DNA from: a virus
IMG/VR virus record: IMGVR_UViG_3300046753_000228
Coordinates: 1-26,800 of that record
DNA: 26,800 nt
Strand: one strand, 5' to 3'
The notes beneath the pieces were generated by a model. That model saw nothing but the letters and a program-made list of their open reading frames with translations. It did no database searches and was not told the origin of the DNA. The translations under genes were made by a program, and so were the position numbers. Positions 3,071 to 15,223 of the stretch are shown piece after piece (the stretch's first letter is position 1; the number at the start of each line of letters is the position of its first letter).

Positions 3071-4341
3071 TAGTGGGTTTCGCTCCAGTTTTTTCCTTTG
3101 GTTGCTTCTGCGTCGATTCTGATTCTGAGGTTGTAGTATTCACCTGATTCAATCGATGAGAGTACCAAGGATGAACATAAGTCTTCTGCATGTTTAGGTT
3201 CTACTTCGAACTGAAGTTCATCATGAATGAACCCTAGTTGAGAGCAGCATAATTTTAATTCTTTAATGTGGTCTTGATTGATAACCATCCAACGCTTCGC
3301 GACTACACCGGCTCCTGATTGGAGGAGGAAGTTAAGCGCTTTGTGAGAGCTATCAACTGCAATTTTTCTTCCATCGAGAGATCGTATGTAGCCTTTTTCC
3401 GAAGCTTTCTTAATTGCTTGAAGGAGTCCTTCCAATCCCTCAACAGCATCAATGTATGCAGCGCGGATCTCCTTACCTTTTCGTTTAGCACTTGATGATG
3501 AGAGTTGTTTATCGTATGAGTGGCCAATCTTTTCGTCACCTGCGCCGTATAGAAACGCATACGTGACGGTCTTAACTAGCTTCCGTGTAATACCTATCTT
3601 GTCTGCATTTACCTGATGGATATCTCCATTGAGGAGGATCTCGGCGTATCTTCCATCGTCGTACTTAGCCAAGTAGTGACTAAGCATCCGAAGCTCAATG
3701 CCAGAAAGGTCAGCACCAACCATGCATAAGCCTGGACTTGGGATAAAGAGTCTTCTAAATCTTTCGTCGCTTGGGACTTGTGCAAGGTTGGGGTTTCGAT
3801 GTGCACACCTGTGTGTAGATGTTGCAACGCTGCAGTGATGATGTATCCGGTCATTCGTACATTGCTTCAGCCAAGCGTTCACGCCTTCCGAGAGGAGACC
3901 AAGCATTTTCATTACCGTCAAACATCTCGCGAACTTCATAGAAATCGGAGACGCTATTTCCTTCAGGATAACTTCGTCGATAACTGGTTTCCCAGTAGCT
4001 GTCAAACTCGTTGGAGTCCAACCATAGAATGTTTGCAATATCCATGAAATGTGATCTCTTGATGTTGGGTTAAGTTCTTTTAGTCGAGTAGAGGATGCAC
4101 CCGCGACATATCCTTGGCGGCTATTATTTCGTTTCGGAGTGAATTCTGCTCCTGCGACGTAAGGGTGTTGCCTGCGTAGTGACTCTTCAATCTCTTGAAG
4201 CTCTTGGGTGAGAGTCGCCACAAGTTTCCATGCAGCAAGCTCGTCAAATCTCCATCCATGTATTTCTTGTTGTGTAAGGATTGTTTGTACTTGGTGCTCA
4301 AGCTGAACCCATTCGGGCAGAGTAATAGATGTGTTGTTCAT
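3070..4341 (-). CDS. DNA polymerase, family A (T7 gp5), polymerase part of a split gene
   Basis: 423 aa carrying the palm, fingers and thumb of a T7-type polymerase but no 3'-5' exonuclease domain. Motif A is GADLSGIELRMLSHYLAKYD (about 214-233), motif B is KTVTYAFLYGAGDEKIG (about 257-273) and motif C is FIHDELQFE (about 372-380) with the catalytic HDE. These line up with T7 gp5 from just before the point where its linker joins the polymerase domain. The ATG at 4341 lies in the same reading phase as the exonuclease gene upstream, but a TAA sits two codons before it and an HNH gene separates the halves. No good Shine-Dalgarno precedes the ATG, so translation may be coupled to the HNH frame, which overlaps by 44 nt. 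The two proteins would have to assemble into one enzyme. Confidence 0.88.
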   Translation of the reverse strand: MNNTSITLPEWVQLEHQVQTILTQQEIHGWRFDELAAWKLVATLTQELQEIEESLRRQHPYVAGAEFTPKRNNSRQGYVAGASSTRLKELNPTSRDHISWILQTFYGWTPTSLTATGKPVIDEVILKEIASPISMKFARCLTVMKMLGLLSEGVNAWLKQCTNDRIHHHCSVATSTHRCAHRNPNLAQVPSDERFRRLFIPSPGLCMVGADLSGIELRMLSHYLAKYDDGRYAEILLNGDIHQVNADKIGITRKLVKTVTYAFLYGAGDEKIGHSYDKQLSSSSAKRKGKEIRAAYIDAVEGLEGLLQAIKKASEKGYIRSLDGRKIAVDSSHKALNFLLQSGAGVVAKRWMVINQDHIKELKLCCSQLGFIHDELQFEVEPKHAEDLCSSLVLSSIESGEYYNLRIRIDAEATKGKNWSETH

Positions 4342-4693
4342 GCGTTCTTACTGAGTGGCAGTTAGCGCATAAGACATCGCATTTAGCAATCTCTTTTTCA
4401 ATAGACTCCCATGATCTTTTTGGATCCTGAGATATATTGAAGGTCTTCGTGGTGTGATCACGGTGGTCAAAATGTAGTGCGGCAGGGTGTTCGTTATATC
4501 CACAACGAGAGCAGCCAGCATCAAGCTTTATTTGATCTAACTTTTCTCGCCGTGCTTTCTGATAGTTTTGAGTTGATTTGTATTTAGTTGGAGAGGTATC
4601 CTTACAACGTGGTGAGCAGTATTTACTCCAAGATCTACTTGGCTGAAAGATTACGCCACAGGTTCCGCAAGGTATTTTTGAAAGTGTTGCCAT
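4298..4693 (-). CDS. HNH endonuclease inserted in the DNA polymerase gene
   Basis: 131 aa from the ATG at 4693 (a longer frame opens at 4759, inside the exonuclease domain). An N-terminal zinc-binding part with CGTC and CSPRC precedes an HNH fold: CSRCGYNEHPAALHFDHRDH, then LCANCHSVRTHEQH, giving two CxxC pairs and the H-N-H core. Such genes are usually homing endonucleases that cut the uninterrupted allele and spread by repair. The frame overlaps the exonuclease gene by 43 nt and the polymerase gene by 44 nt and fills almost the whole insert, so no space remains for a group I intron core; it is also out of frame with both halves, so it is not an intein. Comparable intronless insertions splitting phage replication or nucleotide genes are known in T4-like phages. 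Confidence 0.85.
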   Translation of the reverse strand: MATLSKIPCGTCGVIFQPSRSWSKYCSPRCKDTSPTKYKSTQNYQKARREKLDQIKLDAGCSRCGYNEHPAALHFDHRDHTTKTFNISQDPKRSWESIEKEIAKCDVLCANCHSVRTHEQHIYYSARMGSA

Positions 4694-5184
4694 AATTTTG
4701 TAGTTACTTTTACGTCCTGGACGCAATACATCTCCATTTCTTGTGACCAATCCTTCCAATCAGTGTCTTTACCAAAGTTTCCTTTGTATTCACCTAATCG
4801 ATAACCGTAGGACTCAAGAGAATGGCGGCCATATAATTTCAATGGCATGTTTTTCCAATTATGTTTCTTATCTACTTCAATCATGTTCGAATGGTATAGA
4901 CGTGATAGTAATAAAGTATCAATGACAATACCAGGAGACACAAACCAAGGATATAGTTTACGAAGAACAGGAATGTCGTACCCAATAACATTGTGACCCA
5001 TGATGCAGTCAGCATCAGCCAACCGCTGTATCCCTCGTACAACAGGTTCTTCATTACCTTGGTCGTTATACGAGATAGTTTCTTTTGTATTGAAATCATA
5101 AATTGCTAGACAGTGGATTGTAGAAACTTCGTGTAATAAACCATCAGTTTCTAAGTCAAAGATCAGACTCACTTCTGTTTCCAT
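4651..5184 (-). CDS. DNA polymerase 3'-5' exonuclease domain (T7 gp5 N-terminal part), split gene
   Basis: 177 aa equal to the proofreading domain of T7 gp5. Exo I is FDLETDGLL (about 9-17, acidic D and E), Exo II is GHNVIGYDIPVL (about 62-73), followed by IDTLLLSRLYHSN (T7: IDTLVLSRLIHSN) and GRHSLESYGYRLGEYKG, and Exo III is YCVQDVKVTTKL (about 154-165). The domain match ends at HFQKYL, where T7 gp5 continues through a linker into the polymerase domain; here the frame reads three or four more codons and stops, over the start of the HNH gene. The protein could work alone as an exonuclease or pair with the polymerase half. Confidence 0.88.
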   Translation of the reverse strand: METEVSLIFDLETDGLLHEVSTIHCLAIYDFNTKETISYNDQGNEEPVVRGIQRLADADCIMGHNVIGYDIPVLRKLYPWFVSPGIVIDTLLLSRLYHSNMIEVDKKHNWKNMPLKLYGRHSLESYGYRLGEYKGNFGKDTDWKDWSQEMEMYCVQDVKVTTKLWQHFQKYLAEPVA

Positions 5185-8170: not shown

Positions 8171-8400
8171 TAGGTGAAATTACAGGTAGTTTCTTTCAGA
8201 AGATTGCAGAGATCTATGTAGATAAACTCAGCTTCCTCTATATGATTTTTATTTATACACTCAGTGATCATATGTATGAGTGTATGACAATGCTTGATGT
8301 AATCGTTTGTAGAAGTGCAAGTCTTAGCTCTTGAAAGAGCGACATCCCATCGATCAGTGAGATTACAATAATCGTAGTAAGACTGCGGTATCGTTAGCAT
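8170..8400 (-). CDS. Hypothetical protein between RNA polymerase and SSB genes
   Basis: 76 aa, coupled on both sides: its ATG overlaps the RNA polymerase stop (TGATG) and its stop overlaps the SSB start (TAATG). Rich in Cys (five) and His, with regular helical repeats such as YIKHCHTLIHMITECINK. The Cys and His are not in an obvious zinc-finger spacing. No function can be assigned. Confidence 0.7.
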   Translation of the reverse strand: MLTIPQSYYDYCNLTDRWDVALSRAKTCTSTNDYIKHCHTLIHMITECINKNHIEEAEFIYIDLCNLLKETTCNFT

Positions 8401-10763
8401 CAGCAGAAAAAATAAGTGGATTCAATCACTGACTCAGGACATAAGTCCCCAATGATCGGAGGTTTTGTTTCAGCACCAATCTGTGCAGCCCATGACGTTA
8501 AGTAGTCATTCTCTGCAAAGAGATGCATGTACGTTTGACGTACGATTGTGGATAAGGTTGACATATCCGTTGCTCTGCATAAAACAGAATCATGGATTAA
8601 TGCAATAGGTGAGTCAAACCTTAACGCAGATAGATGTAAAAGTGAGGCATCTAATGAGTGGATTAGATTAGGACTAGTAGCAGACTTATGATGTAATAGG
8701 TCTACTATGTCTGAATCTTCAGTGGCTACTGTAATCTGTACTCTACCAAGTAATTGCAGAGTTACTTTTTCAGTAATTTTCTTATTAAGCTTTTGAGTGA
8801 CAACAAACCCTGATGGTGTTGCCCATTTAAGATGTGTTGCACCACGCTTAATAGCTTTAGCTACCTCTGATTCAATCCAGGCCATAACAGCCATAGGACC
8901 AGGTACTACTTCAGGCATGACACCTGTAATACCTTTCTTCTTATTACCTCTCAGTTGATCAACAACATGAGTTAGATCATCCTTTGAGATGTCATAATCG
9001 AACTCTTCCTTCAATGCTTTCTTAATGTAGTCTCTATTACTATGAGCCTTGGCATTGTATGGAATAGTCATGACACATCGCTTGACTATCTTTCTATTGA
9101 AGTAAGGTCTTAGATGCTCGTGGATGTTTGGTTTAAGGTGCTCGGCGACGACGGCATAGGCATCGGCAGGTCGTTCTCCTGGCAGGACATTGACAAGACT
9201 TGCAGTTCTTGCGTCTCGGCATAGTCCGGCGAGTATCTGTAGACCACTGCAGGTGGCATCAGTTGCAATTGGCAGAGCAGTGTAATTTCGATCACAGTTA
9301 ATTACGGTGTGGTAGTATTCATCACATGACGCTAGAAATTGCCATGGATCTTCAGCAGCTTCCCAAATAGGTAGACTACCAATAGGGTCTAGTGCGACAG
9401 CACATATGACCTCATCATTCTCAGCTACCCAATCAAGTCTTTCTTGAATTGGTGCTTTATCTAGACCATATGTAGTAGCTACTTGAAAAGCTAACCACTC
9501 TTCAGCTTCTGGTGTCATAAATGCTTCCTCTGCAAAGAGTAACAATGACTTACCAAAGTCTGTATCTTGTGGTGTTAGGAATGCAGGGATTGGATAAGCT
9601 CTACCCCTATAGTCAAATGACCACGGTATGAAGAACTCCTTCTTATCTTTAAAGAGCCTAGCTGCTTCCATTGTCATGCGTGTTCTACATGACTTCTTAA
9701 ATGATGCTGCGTTCTTGTTTAGAACTTCAGCAGCCCTTCGTCTGTAGTCTTTACGAGAATCTTTGTTCTCTGCAATATCTACAGGCTTAGGTGGTAGAGG
9801 CATCTCTACAATAGGGATGAATTTCTTCACTGCAATACCTTTCTCCATCAACGTTTCAGCAACGTCCATGATGAATGGATTGACTCGATAACCAACCTTT
9901 TGAATCTTATTAAGAAACTGAATTGGTGTTTCTCCCTGTATAGGGTCCACACCGCGTCGAACCATGTCGTGGCCCCGCATTACCTCGTTTAAAAGGTAAC
10001 CACCTTGCCTTGATTGTGACCAATCATTAGGCTCAATTAGCATTGGATATGCAATTGGTGAGAATAACTCAGCCTGTGCCATTACCTCATCCTTAATCTC
10101 CATAAAGGCTGGAGTAGGTTCTATACAAATTTTACTATTTCTACCCTCTTTCCTATCTATTTTTTCAAACCAACCACTTGATTTCATCACACAGTCAAGT
10201 AACCAATTTCCTAGCTTAACTCTATTAACTGCTCCCCATTTAGTCCATTGAGGTACATTATAACGTTGAATTAGCGTCCTTACAATGACAAACTTTTGAT
10301 GCGTGCCAGTAGTATTATGCCAATAGTTCTTTTTAATAACATTTAGCAGACCAGGACAGTTCTTCTCATAGAACTGCATCTGAGCCTCTTCCTCTACTGC
10401 TGTACCAATAGCTTCTGCGACTGTTACTAATTTATTTGAATTATCTTTATAGCTAAATACCTTATCAAAGATAACTTTACAAGCAATAGCACCAGCGGCA
10501 CCAGCTTCTATAGGCGCTAAGTATTGGTGTATCTCAGCAAATGACTTGCCGATATAGCCTTCTTTGATTCGTTTCTTGGTCTCTTCGATTCGTTTGGTAA
10601 CAAGAGGCAAAAGAGTGCTGATACTGCTACAACCGTAAACAGTTGCAGAGGCGTAGCTCTTACCCTCGAGATCTCTCGTGTTCTTGCGTAGACGCTCAAG
10701 TCCCATTCGGATTGCGTCTCTTTCGAATTGAACTTGCTCTTCAATTTGTGCAGGTGTTGCCAG
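8400..10763 (-). CDS. DNA-directed RNA polymerase, single subunit (T7 gp1 type), apparent CTG start
   Basis: 787 aa if started at CTG 10763. Transcribes the middle and late phage genes. Catalytic elements are all present: DATCSGLQILAGL (T7 D537 region), KRCVMTIPYNAK (T7 K631 and Y639 region) and ALIHDSVLC (T7 D812 region). The first ATG is 10706, but the 19 codons before it read (L)ATPAQIEEQVQFERDAIR and align with T7 RNAP, whose REQLALEHESYEMG precedes the same MG. An AGAGGT Shine-Dalgarno lies six bases before the CTG; no ATG, GTG or TTG occurs in this frame between the CTG and an in-frame stop ten codons upstream. The gene follows the integrase after a short gap containing a hairpin. Confidence 0.93.
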   Translation of the reverse strand: MATPAQIEEQVQFERDAIRMGLERLRKNTRDLEGKSYASATVYGCSSISTLLPLVTKRIEETKKRIKEGYIGKSFAEIHQYLAPIEAGAAGAIACKVIFDKVFSYKDNSNKLVTVAEAIGTAVEEEAQMQFYEKNCPGLLNVIKKNYWHNTTGTHQKFVIVRTLIQRYNVPQWTKWGAVNRVKLGNWLLDCVMKSSGWFEKIDRKEGRNSKICIEPTPAFMEIKDEVMAQAELFSPIAYPMLIEPNDWSQSRQGGYLLNEVMRGHDMVRRGVDPIQGETPIQFLNKIQKVGYRVNPFIMDVAETLMEKGIAVKKFIPIVEMPLPPKPVDIAENKDSRKDYRRRAAEVLNKNAASFKKSCRTRMTMEAARLFKDKKEFFIPWSFDYRGRAYPIPAFLTPQDTDFGKSLLLFAEEAFMTPEAEEWLAFQVATTYGLDKAPIQERLDWVAENDEVICAVALDPIGSLPIWEAAEDPWQFLASCDEYYHTVINCDRNYTALPIATDATCSGLQILAGLCRDARTASLVNVLPGERPADAYAVVAEHLKPNIHEHLRPYFNRKIVKRCVMTIPYNAKAHSNRDYIKKALKEEFDYDISKDDLTHVVDQLRGNKKKGITGVMPEVVPGPMAVMAWIESEVAKAIKRGATHLKWATPSGFVVTQKLNKKITEKVTLQLLGRVQITVATEDSDIVDLLHHKSATSPNLIHSLDASLLHLSALRFDSPIALIHDSVLCRATDMSTLSTIVRQTYMHLFAENDYLTSWAAQIGAETKPPIIGDLCPESVIESTYFFC

Positions 10764-10769
10764 ATTTTT

Positions 10770-10775
10770 ACCTCT
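10770..10775 (-). promoter_or_regulatory. Shine-Dalgarno site for RNA polymerase (decides CTG start)
   Basis: AGAGGT on the minus strand, six bases before CTG 10763. It supports initiation there rather than at ATG 10706, which has only a weak AGAGA stretch upstream. Confidence 0.6.
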
Positions 10776-10793
10776 ATGATTGTGAATTAGTTA

Positions 10794-10817
10794 AGGGTAT
10801 AAGCGGACCTATACCCT
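10794..10817 (-). terminator. Hairpin between integrase and RNA polymerase genes
   Basis: Perfect 8-bp inverted repeat, AGGGTATA and TATACCCT, with an 8-nt loop. No U-run follows it on the minus strand, so it may be an attenuator, an mRNA-processing site or a protein-binding site rather than a full terminator. A TCACAATC motif (10778-10785) follows it immediately, before the RNA polymerase ribosome-binding site. Confidence 0.45.
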
Positions 10818-10855
10818 AGTGTAATTGATTAGTTTGTAGGTGTTAGATGGTGCAT

Positions 10856-11710
10856 CTAGCCAAAAACACTGGCCAGTGCTGCATCTCGGCTCTTATCTGT
10901 AGCTTTAGCGTACCGCAAAGTTGTCTTATATAGCTTGTGTCCCATCATATCCATAAGTACTCTTAGTTGTGTTCCTGATTCTATATTCCAAGTCGCAAAG
11001 CTATGACGAAGGGAGTGGAATACATAATGTGGTTCCTTACCTATCTGTCGTGTTGCTTTCTTGAAATACCAAAGCACTGACTTACCATTCTGCCATTCAT
11101 CACCAAAGATGTTGCAGTCTGGATGAGTACCAACGACACGATCTTTGACAATCTGTTGTATTGGATCTGCGATAGGTAACACTCTCCAATCACCATTCTT
11201 GGTGTTGAATCCTGGCCTACCACCAAAGTACAGGCAGTTCTTGTCAAGGTCTACGTCCTTGGCTTTAAGAGTTAGTAGCTCAGTCATGCGACCACCAGTA
11301 CATGCAGCGAATCTGATTAACTCACTGAGTGCACTGTTGGTGATAGAACATAACTCATCCACTTCCTCTTGTGTGAAGAAGTAAGGTCTACCTACTGACT
11401 CTTTGTACTGCTTGACCTTTGGTGGTGCAAAGTCAATCTCTTCCTCATCATATAGGTGTGACAATACCGTCGTAACGGGTGTTACCCTCCTATTGATTGA
11501 GCCATTACAAATTTCTCTGTCCTCCATATCCATTTGATAGGATTTGAGGAACTTACGGTTGATATCCTTTAGTAGGAAATCCTCACCCGCGAAATCTGTG
11601 AAGTGTTGGCAATTGATAGCCGTTGCTTGCTTTCCGCTTCCGTGTTTCCACGAATAGCGGGTTCTAAAGGTGTAATCAACACCCTGTTGCCAAGTGACAA
11701 TGTCACCCAT
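10856..11710 (-). CDS. int: Tyrosine-type integrase/site-specific recombinase
   Basis: 284 aa from the ATG at 11710 (a GTG at 11746 opens a longer frame, but 11710 overlaps the MarR-like stop and suits the N-terminal domain). The catalytic set is complete: Arg in CTGGRMTELL (about 152-161), HxxR in HSLRHSFATW (about 231-240), the histidine of MMGHKLYKTT and the nucleophilic Tyr in LRYAKAT. The N-terminal SAM-like DNA-binding domain covers about residues 1-100. Integrases precede the RNA polymerase gene in many cyanopodoviruses, though lysogeny is rarely shown. I found no tRNA-like attP in the gap downstream. Confidence 0.92.
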   Translation of the reverse strand: MGDIVTWQQGVDYTFRTRYSWKHGSGKQATAINCQHFTDFAGEDFLLKDINRKFLKSYQMDMEDREICNGSINRRVTPVTTVLSHLYDEEEIDFAPPKVKQYKESVGRPYFFTQEEVDELCSITNSALSELIRFAACTGGRMTELLTLKAKDVDLDKNCLYFGGRPGFNTKNGDWRVLPIADPIQQIVKDRVVGTHPDCNIFGDEWQNGKSVLWYFKKATRQIGKEPHYVFHSLRHSFATWNIESGTQLRVLMDMMGHKLYKTTLRYAKATDKSRDAALASVFG

Positions 11711-12059
11711 AAATAGTGTCCTTGAATTGGTCAATGAAGTCTTCACCTTTGGGAGTTAGCCTTGTTAAGTGTCTACGTCCATTACTAGGATCAGTGTACT
11801 TTTCTACTAGTCCTAAACCAGGTTTCTTAAGCCTGTTATTCCAGACACATAGAAGGTCAATCATCCTTGATGATGAAGCAGAACTAAAATCCAAGTCGTC
11901 TTCTATTGCTTGCTTATGGCAAGGATTGTGAGAAGCAATATAAAGAAGACAGGAAACGGCTTGTCCAGGTACTTCACGATGCAAAGTACGTAGTAACTCC
12001 CATCCTTGAAGAACAGAGTTCACCCGTCTATCTGTCTCCGTCCGTTTAAGGGGATCCAT
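11703..12059 (-). CDS. MarR-like winged-helix transcription regulator
   Basis: 118 aa. Shows the MarR winged-helix pattern: PGQAVSCLLYIASHNPC, a recognition-helix segment DLDFSSASSSRMIDLL (about 54-69), GLGLVEKYTDPSNGRRH for the wing and LTRLTPKGEDFI. It sits directly upstream of the integrase with an 8-nt overlap and downstream of a predicted promoter at 12084-12112, so it may control its own operon (MarR, integrase, RNA polymerase) and act in a lysis/integration or early/late switch. No Shine-Dalgarno is seen before the ATG; the transcript may be nearly leaderless. Confidence 0.75.
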   Translation of the reverse strand: MDPLKRTETDRRVNSVLQGWELLRTLHREVPGQAVSCLLYIASHNPCHKQAIEDDLDFSSASSSRMIDLLCVWNNRLKKPGLGLVEKYTDPSNGRRHLTRLTPKGEDFIDQFKDTIYG

Positions 12060-12083
12060 TTAGGAAAGGAGAACTCAATGATA

Positions 12084-12112
12084 ATTATACCACAGTGTAC
12101 GTGTAATGTGCG
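12084..12112 (-). promoter_or_regulatory. Predicted extended -10 promoter of the MarR-integrase operon
   Basis: On the minus strand TGG precedes a perfect TATAAT (12084-12089), an extended -10 element; the -35 position is poor. GTACACT lies four bases before the -10, exactly as in the two early promoters at 14709 and 14856. Just upstream (12116-12166) TGAAACCAAA occurs twice around an imperfect palindrome, a possible operator. Confidence 0.55.
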
Positions 12113-12197
12113 GCGATGAAACCAAATGTCATAACGTGATACGTCATTGAAACCAAAATAGATCAAAGAATGAAATGCGAATCATTATCACTATGAA

Positions 12198-12833: not shown

Positions 12834-13002
12834 CACTCATCCTCACGTCCTTAAGTGTACAATTGCGGCGACTGGATAGCTCCAAAGCTGTATATGCAGC
12901 GTCCTCAGAATTGGAAGCTACGACATACTCATAAAGAATATCGTCACCGTCTTGCAATAAGACCTCATATTCGTTTAATTTTATTTGTCCAAGTAATGGC
13001 AT
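12823..13002 (-). CDS. Small hypothetical early protein (59 aa)
   Basis: Start chosen at ATG 13002 (MPLLGQIKLNEYEVLLQDGD); a GTG at 13047 would extend into a region with two TCACAATC motifs and the terminator upstream. The composition (strand-strand-helix, SEDAAYTALELSS) resembles short phage proteins of a simple alpha/beta fold. An AAGGA is present but 14 nt from the ATG, too far for a strong site. Function unknown. Confidence 0.55.
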   Translation of the reverse strand: MPLLGQIKLNEYEVLLQDGDDILYEYVVASNSEDAAYTALELSSRRNCTLKDVRMSDEW

Positions 13003-13172: not shown

Positions 13173-13385
13173 TCATTGAAACTCCTTGTTGTTTAAATCA
13201 ATCAAATCTTTGTTTATTTTGTTTGAATAATAACGTGATGTGATTCGATTTGAACGTTGCCAGATAATAGCAGTACTAAATAGTCCTACCATGCCGACAA
13301 TTGCAAGGATGATAGTAGACTCAGAAGGAACAAACATAGTTAGAAAAGTGATAGATTGTGAATTATTGAATAAAGAGTAAGTCAT
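13173..13385 (-). CDS. Small membrane protein (70 aa)
   Basis: ATG at 13385 overlaps the upstream stop (ATGA) and has GGAGA seven bases before it. One membrane helix is evident (STIILAIVGMVGLFSTAIIW, about residues 23-42), followed by a basic, polar tail (RSNRITSRYYSNK). An inner start at ATG 13337 (MFVPSES) lies 16 nt after a TCACAATC motif and would give 54 aa, so two forms are possible. Holin-like size, but its early position argues against lysis. Function unknown. Confidence 0.55.
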   Translation of the reverse strand: MTYSLFNNSQSITFLTMFVPSESTIILAIVGMVGLFSTAIIWQRSNRITSRYYSNKINKDLIDLNNKEFQ

Positions 13386-13842: not shown

Positions 13843-13885
13843 AGAGAAAGTGTAAAGATTGTGAAAGGATACTTAAGTGTACAAA

Positions 13886-14125
13886 TCAGGTGATGTTGTA
13901 AGACAAAACATACTTGTCATAAGGGAGTAAGTTCTCATTAACCCAAAAACCAAGACTCATATTCTTATTGAATACTAGGTTAAGGATTGAACGCTTGGAG
14001 ACATTCCAATAGCGATATGTCTCACCACTCTTATAGACAACATCGACAATGCCAGATAAAACATTGACGAAGATATCTTCTACACAGGAAGAAGAACGCT
14101 TGGAAACAGTAAGTGGAATGTACAT
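13886..14125 (-). CDS. KTSC-like domain protein, copy 2
   Basis: 79 aa. Paralogue of the next gene upstream: RSSSCVEDIFVNVLSGIVDV, then YKSGETYRYWNVSKR and SLGFWVNEN. The layout (SS, strand, short strand, SG, aromatic Y, helix, GFWxN) resembles the KTSC domain found at the C-terminus of some lysyl-tRNA synthetases and in many small phage proteins; its role there is unknown. It has an extra 15-residue tail. A TCACAATC motif lies 15 nt before the ATG. Confidence 0.6.
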   Translation of the reverse strand: MYIPLTVSKRSSSCVEDIFVNVLSGIVDVVYKSGETYRYWNVSKRSILNLVFNKNMSLGFWVNENLLPYDKYVLSYNIT

Positions 14126-14165
14126 AATAAAAAGGTGAAAGATTGTGAGTGTTAATTAGAGTGGA

Positions 14166-14363
14166 TTACTTACAGTTCTTGTTGAACCAGAAACCGAAAG
14201 AGATGCAAGGATTAAGTAATTCTTGAATAGCATCTAGAGTGACAGAGTAGTAGTGAACAGCACCACTCATAAATTGTACGCGAACCTTAGAAGTAGCAAG
14301 GTTGAAATCAATGTCTTCGATAAAGGAAGAAGAACGGGCAGGAGCAACAACGAAAGCAGACAT
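14166..14363 (-). CDS. KTSC-like domain protein, copy 1 (first early gene)
   Basis: 65 aa, the first gene after the early promoters. It shares the pattern of the neighbouring gene: RSSSFIEDIDFNLATSKVRV, FMSGAVHYYSVTLDA and SFGFWFNKN. Sequence identity between the two is low to moderate, pointing to an old duplication. A TCACAATC motif lies 16 nt upstream of the ATG. No Shine-Dalgarno is present, so initiation relies on something else. Confidence 0.6.
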   Translation of the reverse strand: MSAFVVAPARSSSFIEDIDFNLATSKVRVQFMSGAVHYYSVTLDAIQELLNPCISFGFWFNKNCK

Positions 14364-14708
14364 AATAATAAAGCGAATGGATTGTGAAAGTAAATTGAAC
14401 AGTATTGAACTAGTCTTAGTTAATACTTAGTGGATTGATTTATCAATCAACCCTAGGTACGATAATCTTAATCTTCTTAAGAGCACGTAATTGCCACGAC
14501 TTAATCTTTGTATGAGTCGTTGGTTTCTTACTGATGTGATTCAATAGAAGAAAGATGTTTAAGTGTACAGGTTAACAGACTAACTGTTATGTATTCAGTT
14601 GTAGTTGAATCAATTAAATGATTCTCTGTTGCTGCAGTATCGGCAGGATAACTAACGCGATAGGAGCGTCACCTTTATTCAGTTTGTGTGTTTTTTGTCC
14701 ACTCTTAT
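14364..14708 (-). other. Gene-free early leader
   Basis: About 345 nt between the proximal early promoter and the first early gene, without an ATG-initiated frame of note on the minus strand. It contains a 7+7 bp palindrome GATTGAT/ATCAATC (14433-14448), weaker stems ACGACT/AGTCGT and TAACAG/CTGTTA, a GTACACT copy at 14562-14568 and a TCACAATC motif at 14380-14387. It could be a structured 5' leader. Confidence 0.5.
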
Positions 14709-14737
14709 AATATAGCAGAGTGTACAGGTTTTGTCAA
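14709..14737 (-). promoter_or_regulatory. Early sigma70 promoter, proximal
   Basis: On the minus strand: perfect -35 TTGACA (14732-14737), 17-bp spacer, -10 TATATT (14709-14714). GTACACT ends four bases before the -10, and CACTCT/AGAGTG form an inverted repeat around the -10, a plausible operator. Drives the early genes by host RNA polymerase. Confidence 0.78.
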
Positions 14738-14855
14738 TAGGTGAGTGCCACTTCGTTGACTGTCTCCTGTTCGACTCCGGTTTCCGGTTCTACTAAGGAG
14801 AGGAGAGTGAATAAGGTTGACTAGACTTCGCGTCAGTTCCTTTGTCCACTGTTCT

Positions 14856-14884
14856 AATATACACGAGTGTACCGGATAAGTCAT
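14856..14884 (-). promoter_or_regulatory. Early sigma70 promoter, distal
   Basis: Minus strand -35 ATGACT (14879-14884), 17-bp spacer, -10 TATATT (14856-14861). GTACACT is again four bases before the -10, and the sequence downstream of the -10 (AGTGGACAAA) is shared with the proximal promoter, so the two are diverged copies about 147 bp apart. Confidence 0.65.
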
Positions 14885-15171: not shown

Positions 15172-15223
15172 AAATTGCGTCCCGGTGTATCGATATAAGG
15201 GTTCAGAAATTTATATTATTTTT

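Follow-up and report, generated by a model that had tools for sequence, protein, structure and literature searches.

Oriented pseudo-palindromic sites in the early region of integrase-carrying T7-like cyanophages, probable operators of a MarR-like protein

Organization of the Early Region

The analyzed window, a stretch of 26,800 nucleotides (positions 1 to 26,800 of the IMG/VR record IMGVR_UViG_3300046753_000228), originates from a T7-like cyanophage of the P-SSP7 group. On the minus strand, the terminase gene is followed by the left genome end, a series of small early genes, the gene of a MarR-like protein, an integrase gene, the gene of a T7-like RNA polymerase (RNAP), and the replication genes. 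The annotations of P-SSP7, S-CBP1, S-CBP3, and S-TIP37 show the early genes in the same order. The left genome end of P-SSP7 aligned by eye with the window near position 15195; therefore, the window seems to cross the terminal junction. Given a junction at this place, the twin promoters described below seem to lie ~310–490 bases inside the genome end. The features of the region are listed in Table 1.

Table 1. Coordinates of genes, promoters, and sites in the window.
Feature	Position	Strand	Remarks
T7-like RNA polymerase	8400..10706	-	PF00940, 3.8e-65
Site ATTACACTAGGGTATAG in the integrase–RNAP gap	10809..10825	-	Matrix score 16.5; equivalent place in relatives
Tyrosine integrase	10856..11746	-	PF00589, 3.3e-21; co-occurs with the MarR-like gene
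MarR-like winged-helix protein, proposed binder	11703..12059	-	118 aa; fold model and profile
orfX, unannotated ORF	12020..12166	-	48 aa, TTG start; between the RHH-like and MarR-like genes, overlapping the start of the latter
Third string, GTACACT-N4-TATAAT	12084..12100	-	orfX coding sequence; promoter unsupported
GTACACT copy 12854	12844..12861	-	Coding; encodes CTLKDV at the end of the neighboring gene
Copy TGTACACTTAAGTATCCT	13866..13883	-	Flanked by two small genes, with an ATG 24 bases downstream; matrix score 10.6
Degenerate third left-end copy TGTACACTTAAACATCTT	14552..14569	-	Right half absent
Left-end site 2, GTACACTCTGCTATATTATAAGAGTGGAC	14697..14725	-	Matrix score 10.7; interior matches L076
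Sigma-70-like promoter 2, TTGACA-17-TATATT	14709..14737	-	11/12
Left-end site 1, GTACACTCGTGTATATTAGAACAGTGGAC	14844..14872	-	Operator-like dyad spanning the -10 and start; matrix score 12.9; interior matches L076
Sigma-70-like promoter 1, ATGACT-17-TATATT	14856..14884	-	9/12, a quality that shuffles also reach

Left-End Promoters and Inverted Repeats

The string GTACACT-N4-TATAWT was found three times on the minus strand (14872–14856, 14725–14709, and 12100–12084) and not at all on the plus strand, whereas the mean over 400 dinucleotide shuffles was 0.005 and no shuffle had more than 1. Thus, the three strings noted in the preliminary description of this DNA exist and exceed the chance expectation. 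The additional GTACACT copies that it had placed at 14562, 13876, and 12854 were also present, along with three others at 11793 (-), 5345 (-), and 7521 (+). The heptamer by itself was weakly enriched, with 9 copies vs. 4.2 expected and 2 of 100 shuffles equally high.

The inverted repeat said to surround the -10 proved to be real at both left-end sites, where it reads GTACACT-N15-AGTGGAC (14872–14844 and 14725–14697). The same pair was found in the relative L076, where the interiors are CACTCGTGTATATTA and CACTCTGCTATATTA and the inverted arms are likewise present, and an inverted arm was located 9 bases downstream at the left-end sites of L005, L010, L012, L013, L024, and L028. The claim of promoters held for these two sites, which have -35 and -10 hexamers at the 16–18 base distance of sigma-70-type promoters with 9 (14872) and 11 (14725) of 12 matches; the region contained 10 promoter matches of the 9/12 kind vs. 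4.5 in shuffles. A string near GAACCTTGACAACTTCATA was kept at the left end of integrase-carrying and integrase-negative phages alike (at ~425–445 in L089 and directly after the left-end site in L005 and L013) and may belong to the terminal repeat or to a leader RNA.

The promoter claim failed for the third string, at 12100, which had been placed upstream of the MarR-like gene. No -35 was found there (best match 3/6), the TATAAT was not conserved (TATGCT in several relatives), and the string lies in a coding frame. The DNA upstream of the MarR-like gene is kept as protein, reading ...YDIWFHRRTLHVHCGIIIIE... in the window and VHLG in distant phages, and the frame, designated orfX, carries HVHCG or VHLG near the end of the protein. 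It was free of stops in all 28 loci checked, in 23 of which the protein motif was recognized automatically. The leader of the MarR-like gene in S-TIP37 retains the coded VHLG and not the site variant of that phage, which fits coding constraint. A third promoter was therefore rejected, since the conserved reading frame explains the string, which may nevertheless have a dual role as coding sequence and binding site. A tblastn search recovered the orfX protein in 27 integrase-carrying loci and in no integrase-negative locus, so the MarR–integrase cassette may include orfX as its third gene. The DNA of the 12854 copy was also present in the integrase-negative L020.

Geometry of the Sites

The left-end motif belongs to a wider family of sites, roughly aaccTRTMC-ACTNNS-GTATA, located at the left end and between the integrase and RNAP genes. 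Its half-sites, TRTMC and GKAYA, are separated by 6 bases with a conserved ACT at the left of this middle, which makes the sites pseudo-palindromic and directional at the same time. Among 57 chosen sites, arm complementarity was 3.39 of 6 at the 6-base gap vs. 0.77–1.91 at other gaps. A winged-helix dimer is expected to bind half-sites arranged in this way, with a 6-base middle, and the dyad is suggestive of an operator bound by a MarR dimer. The covariation of the arms within sites was weak: 150, 232, and 602 of 5000 re-pairings were equally high for arms of 5, 6, and 7, with the window site at 14568 left out (its right half is absent) and three S-TIP37 sites shifted by one base.

Distribution of the Site Family in Related Phages

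Related loci were sampled through the RNAP, and 80 of the 170 relatives reported were kept. In the integrase–RNAP gap, one pattern recognized a site in 29 of 35 integrase-carrying loci. From 14 distinct sites of this gap, a weight matrix of 17 bases was derived, which located additional sites in the early regions of integrase-carrying relatives. Since the counts before RNAP are high by construction, the fair test lies outside the MarR–integrase cassette. There, the integrase-carrying relatives had 54 sites on the transcribed strand and 5 in reverse in 76.5 kb, near-duplicate contigs included and pre-RNAP sites of the training type in L003 and L027 contributing two of the 54; the integrase-negative relatives had 5 forward and no reverse sites in 102.1 kb. 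With pre-RNAP sites and near-duplicates included, at least one site at threshold 12 was present in 34 of 37 integrase-carrying and 5 of 35 integrase-negative loci, and at least two sites were present in 25 and 0 loci, respectively. The integrase-carrying S-TIP37, P-SSP2, and S-SRP01 had no site at this threshold.

A scan of whole records with the pattern, allowing one mismatch, gave a similar strand bias. In five integrase-carrying records, the transcribed strand accounted for 38 matches and the opposite strand for 7, and the reversed control pattern matched once; records without integrase contained 3 (L020), 1 (L040), 0 (L042), and 0 (L074) matches, and L034, assigned to neither group, contained 1. 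The L002 record had one match, on the opposite strand, between positions 135 and 37,339 of 46,451. The family was thus largely absent from structural genes and from integrase-negative relatives. The members within the KTSC, u53, integrase, and RNAP genes may be coding coincidences. The sites of the window itself scored 9.8–16.5, below many of those in relatives, several of which had two sites near attP, scoring 9.3–9.8 and 18–22, ~160 and 105 bases before RNAP. Conservation in related phages had been named in advance as a check on the motif, and the sites do recur, at early promoters and together with the MarR–integrase cassette.

In some lineages the motif appears in altered form. The best repeated word family of P-SSP3, obtained without the matrix, comprised GATACACCATGGTATAAT and three more copies, all forward, two of the four at the left end, one before an early gene, and one in the integrase–RNAP gap. 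P-SSP2 has a variant like that of P-SSP3 at the left end and before RNAP, and S-TIP37 has sites resembling CCTGTGC-N6-GCACAGG, two at the left end and one before RNAP, forward only. These variants share position and layout with the site family, the score of the P-SSP2 pair being one that shuffles reach. When left-end and pre-RNAP stretches were compared within single genomes, most of the 18 genomes showed a similarity close to that of shuffles, and S-TIP37 alone was clearly above it (19 vs. a null maximum of 17). P-SSP2 reached 18 (null maximum 19) and S-CBP3 reached 17 (null maximum 17), and these two count as variants for the sole reason that their highest-scoring pairs correspond to the motif. 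The same comparison gave no convincing variant in S-SRP01, and the repeated word families of HTVC105P and HTVC019P included no comparable oriented family. The variant of S-TIP37 was absent from the word families listed for that phage; therefore, the word search misses variants with three copies.

On the RNAP tree of 79 rows, the integrase label required 10 changes; eight named rows, as well as rows with <600 bases before RNAP, short rows, and rows with a broken frame, were left out. L020 and its kin, which have no integrase, nested inside an integrase-carrying clade, and L020 had no left-end site at threshold 8. Conversely, L051 and S-CBP1, with an integrase and three sites each outside the cassette, nested with the integrase-negative L094, L095, L072, and L077, which had no sites outside the cassette at threshold 12. 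A tree-corrected test of independent pairs was underpowered, with only 6 supported pairs, and gave no significant result: on average, 2.3 pairs differed in the same way, 0.4 in the opposite way, and 3.3 showed no difference (median p 0.5).

The MarR-Like Protein and the Integrase

The modeled product of 11703–12059 has a winged-helix fold of the MarR type (pLDDT 91.7), and the top rows of both Foldseek and VIA-align were MarR proteins. Among the matches were MarR–DNA complexes, namely 5hlg (Z 12.6, rmsd 2.0 over 81) and 5h3r (Z 12.4, rmsd 1.6 over 77). The single sequence scored below the Pfam cut-offs, with 18 bits vs. 27 for MarR_2 and 14.8 vs. 24.6 for MarR, while 9 of 26 relatives matched MarR_2 at E 0.01 or better and the profile of the family matched MarR structures of the PDB at 2.7e-05. 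Predicted fold and profile therefore support membership in the MarR family, although the single-sequence score falls short.

Of 72 loci, near-duplicate contigs included, 37 contained both the MarR-like and the integrase gene, and the other 35 contained neither. The preliminary description had proposed either this protein or the RHH-like protein as the regulator. The best candidate binder is the MarR-like protein, given its confident MarR fold and the co-occurrence of its gene with the integrase gene (72 of 72 loci). The RHH-like protein was a poor candidate and was set aside: tblastn found a homolog in only 7 of the 37 MarR-positive loci, although a 62-aa query can be missed.

Integration of T7-like cyanophages is known to occur at tRNA-Leu and to yield no stable lysogens, none having been found for S-TIP37 either, and a 2021 study identified no homologs of known lysis repressors in these phages, as stated in passages of the paper (PMC8776855). 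The gap between the integrase and RNAP genes of the window (10706–10856) contained no tRNA-Leu-like stretch recognizable by eye, unlike that of L024 or S-CBP1; therefore, the lineage of the window may integrate elsewhere.

Possible Function of the Sites

On balance, we consider it somewhat probable that the sites serve as operators of the phage MarR-like protein. The earlier idea of a dedicated regulator of early transcription agrees with the conservation of the sites, their location at early promoters, and their association with the MarR–integrase cassette. Its second half, a shut-off of the integrase, rested on the third string, which coding constraint explains. In the proposed course of events, early transcription by host RNA polymerase from the left-end promoters would supply the MarR-like protein, which would bind in dimeric form. 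On the two left-end sites, the protein would cover the -10 and the start of the sigma-70-like promoters and close early transcription, at the site in the integrase–RNAP gap it would limit transcription into the phage RNAP gene, and at the other oriented sites it may hinder the elongating polymerase as a stoperator-like roadblock. Early or lytic transcription would thereby be damped around the time of integration. In its widest form, the proposal is a MarR-type repressor regulon of integrase-carrying T7-like cyanophages, in which oriented operators and stoperator-like sites spread across the entire early region would silence early transcription at the promoter as well as by roadblock, and which strictly lytic sister lineages would have lost along with the integrase; taken in full, we regard this form as tentative and rather doubtful. 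The single strand orientation is unexpected for plain palindromic operators and counts against the operator reading. The weak covariation of the arms, the three integrase-carrying phages with no site at threshold 12, the comparatively low scores in the window, and the nonsignificant pairs test likewise weigh against it.

Alternatively, the sites might be promoters of the phage's own T7-like RNAP, with the twin sites as left-end phage promoters. Promoters of T7 and T3 have the core CACTNNNG, and the sites contain a T7-like CACT core, point in one direction, and precede genes, including directly the RNAP gene, as the phage-specific promoter of LUZ100 also does according to passages of its description (PMC10134795). 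We consider this unlikely, since almost no matches fall in structural genes, although such promoters should precede middle and late genes, integrase-negative lineages with closely related RNAPs lack the sites, the specificity loop of the RNAP does not track the motif by eye, and the half-sites form a dyad. The promoter published for the Syn5 RNAP differs in sequence from the site family (PMC3950665, in the part available), and the intergenic stretches of P-SSP7, S-TIP37, S-CBP1, and S-SBP1 gave no convincing motif of a late phage-RNAP promoter.

The association with the cassette applies to the integrase exactly as to the MarR-like protein, and the sites could be arm-type sites bound by the integrase, or by a complex of both proteins, in integration or excision. 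Two sites lie near attP in several relatives, and the similarity of MarR-like proteins predicted that of the sites no better than the similarity of integrases did (rho 0.47 vs. 0.54, n=12, neither significant). However, many sites are kilobases from attP, at early promoters, and L051 and S-CBP3 have the same type of site despite a very different integrase (31% to that of the window), which makes integrase binding quite improbable. We give equally little credence to the view that the pair is no more than a duplicated host-type promoter, all other members of the family being due to coding coincidence and to sequence shared within lineages. The pair does fit the -35/17/-10 scheme, and the copies at 12854 and 12100 and those in the integrase and RNAP genes are clearly coding; nevertheless, enrichment and strand bias persist outside the cassette in integrase-carrying genomes, the sites are nearly absent from integrase-negative relatives, which also need host promoters, and most sites have no -35 (5 or 6 of 6 matches at 15–19 bases in 5 of 32 left-end sites vs. 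3.4% at random positions). The cyanobacterial NtcA-type box, GTA-N8-TAC, was considered as well, since some sites read GTA-N8-TAC or -TAT; it was set aside, as the GTCCACT variants break the box.

For the operator reading, several known systems provide comparisons, each taken from passages of the paper cited. As in the MarR–integrase lysogeny modules proposed for the temperate T7-like phage LUZ100, and for Pasto and the pelagiphages cited with it, the MarR-like gene directly precedes the integrase and RNAP genes (PMC10134795). In LUZ100, MarR was proposed to bind sites flanking the promoter before RNAP; compared by description, the phages studied here differ in that oriented sites are numerous throughout the early region and occur at two left-end host-type promoters. 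In a pelagiphage study, the role suggested for MarR is to assist in redirecting transcription to the phage and not to repress it (PMC12753301); therefore, the MarR-like protein may instead activate. In the cluster A mycobacteriophage L5, a two-domain monomeric repressor binds at promoters and between genes, at more than 20 asymmetric 13-base operators and stoperators whose orientation is tied to the direction of transcription (PMC9283540). The repetition in one orientation relative to transcription is shared with L5 (54/5 and 38/7 in the two scans above), whereas the sites here are fewer, longer, and pseudo-palindromic, the protein is of MarR type, and the elongation block is putative. Promoter shut-off has a functional precedent, by analogy, in T7 Gp5.7, a small (7 kDa) MarR-like winged-helix protein that represses the early promoters A1–A3 of the host RNAP through interaction with DNA and host RNAP, the available passages mentioning neither an integrase partner nor a repeated site family (PMC5569994).

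No recognizable description of the site family in cyanophages was found among the titles and abstract openings of the open-access papers searched. Defined sites beside the MarR–integrase cassette make the repressor question directly testable with respect to the binder, its target, and the reason why integration stays transient. The family may also serve as a metagenome marker distinguishing integrase-carrying from integrase-free cyanopodoviruses.

Other Small Genes of the Window

Three further minus-strand regions of the window deserve description. A 153-aa ORF (4298–4759) is located between the exonuclease and polymerase parts of the split DNA polymerase and shows by eye a pattern that we take to be HNH-like. 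A small ORF with a hydrophobic stretch (13173–13385) is ~81–83% similar at the DNA level to a stretch of the Synechococcus phages S-SBP1 and S-RIP1 that carries no annotation there. Two adjoining small KTSC-like proteins are encoded at 13886–14363, the second matching at 0.00019, below the Pfam cut-off; the pair resembles genes of S-SBP1 and S-RIP1 and is probably an old duplication.
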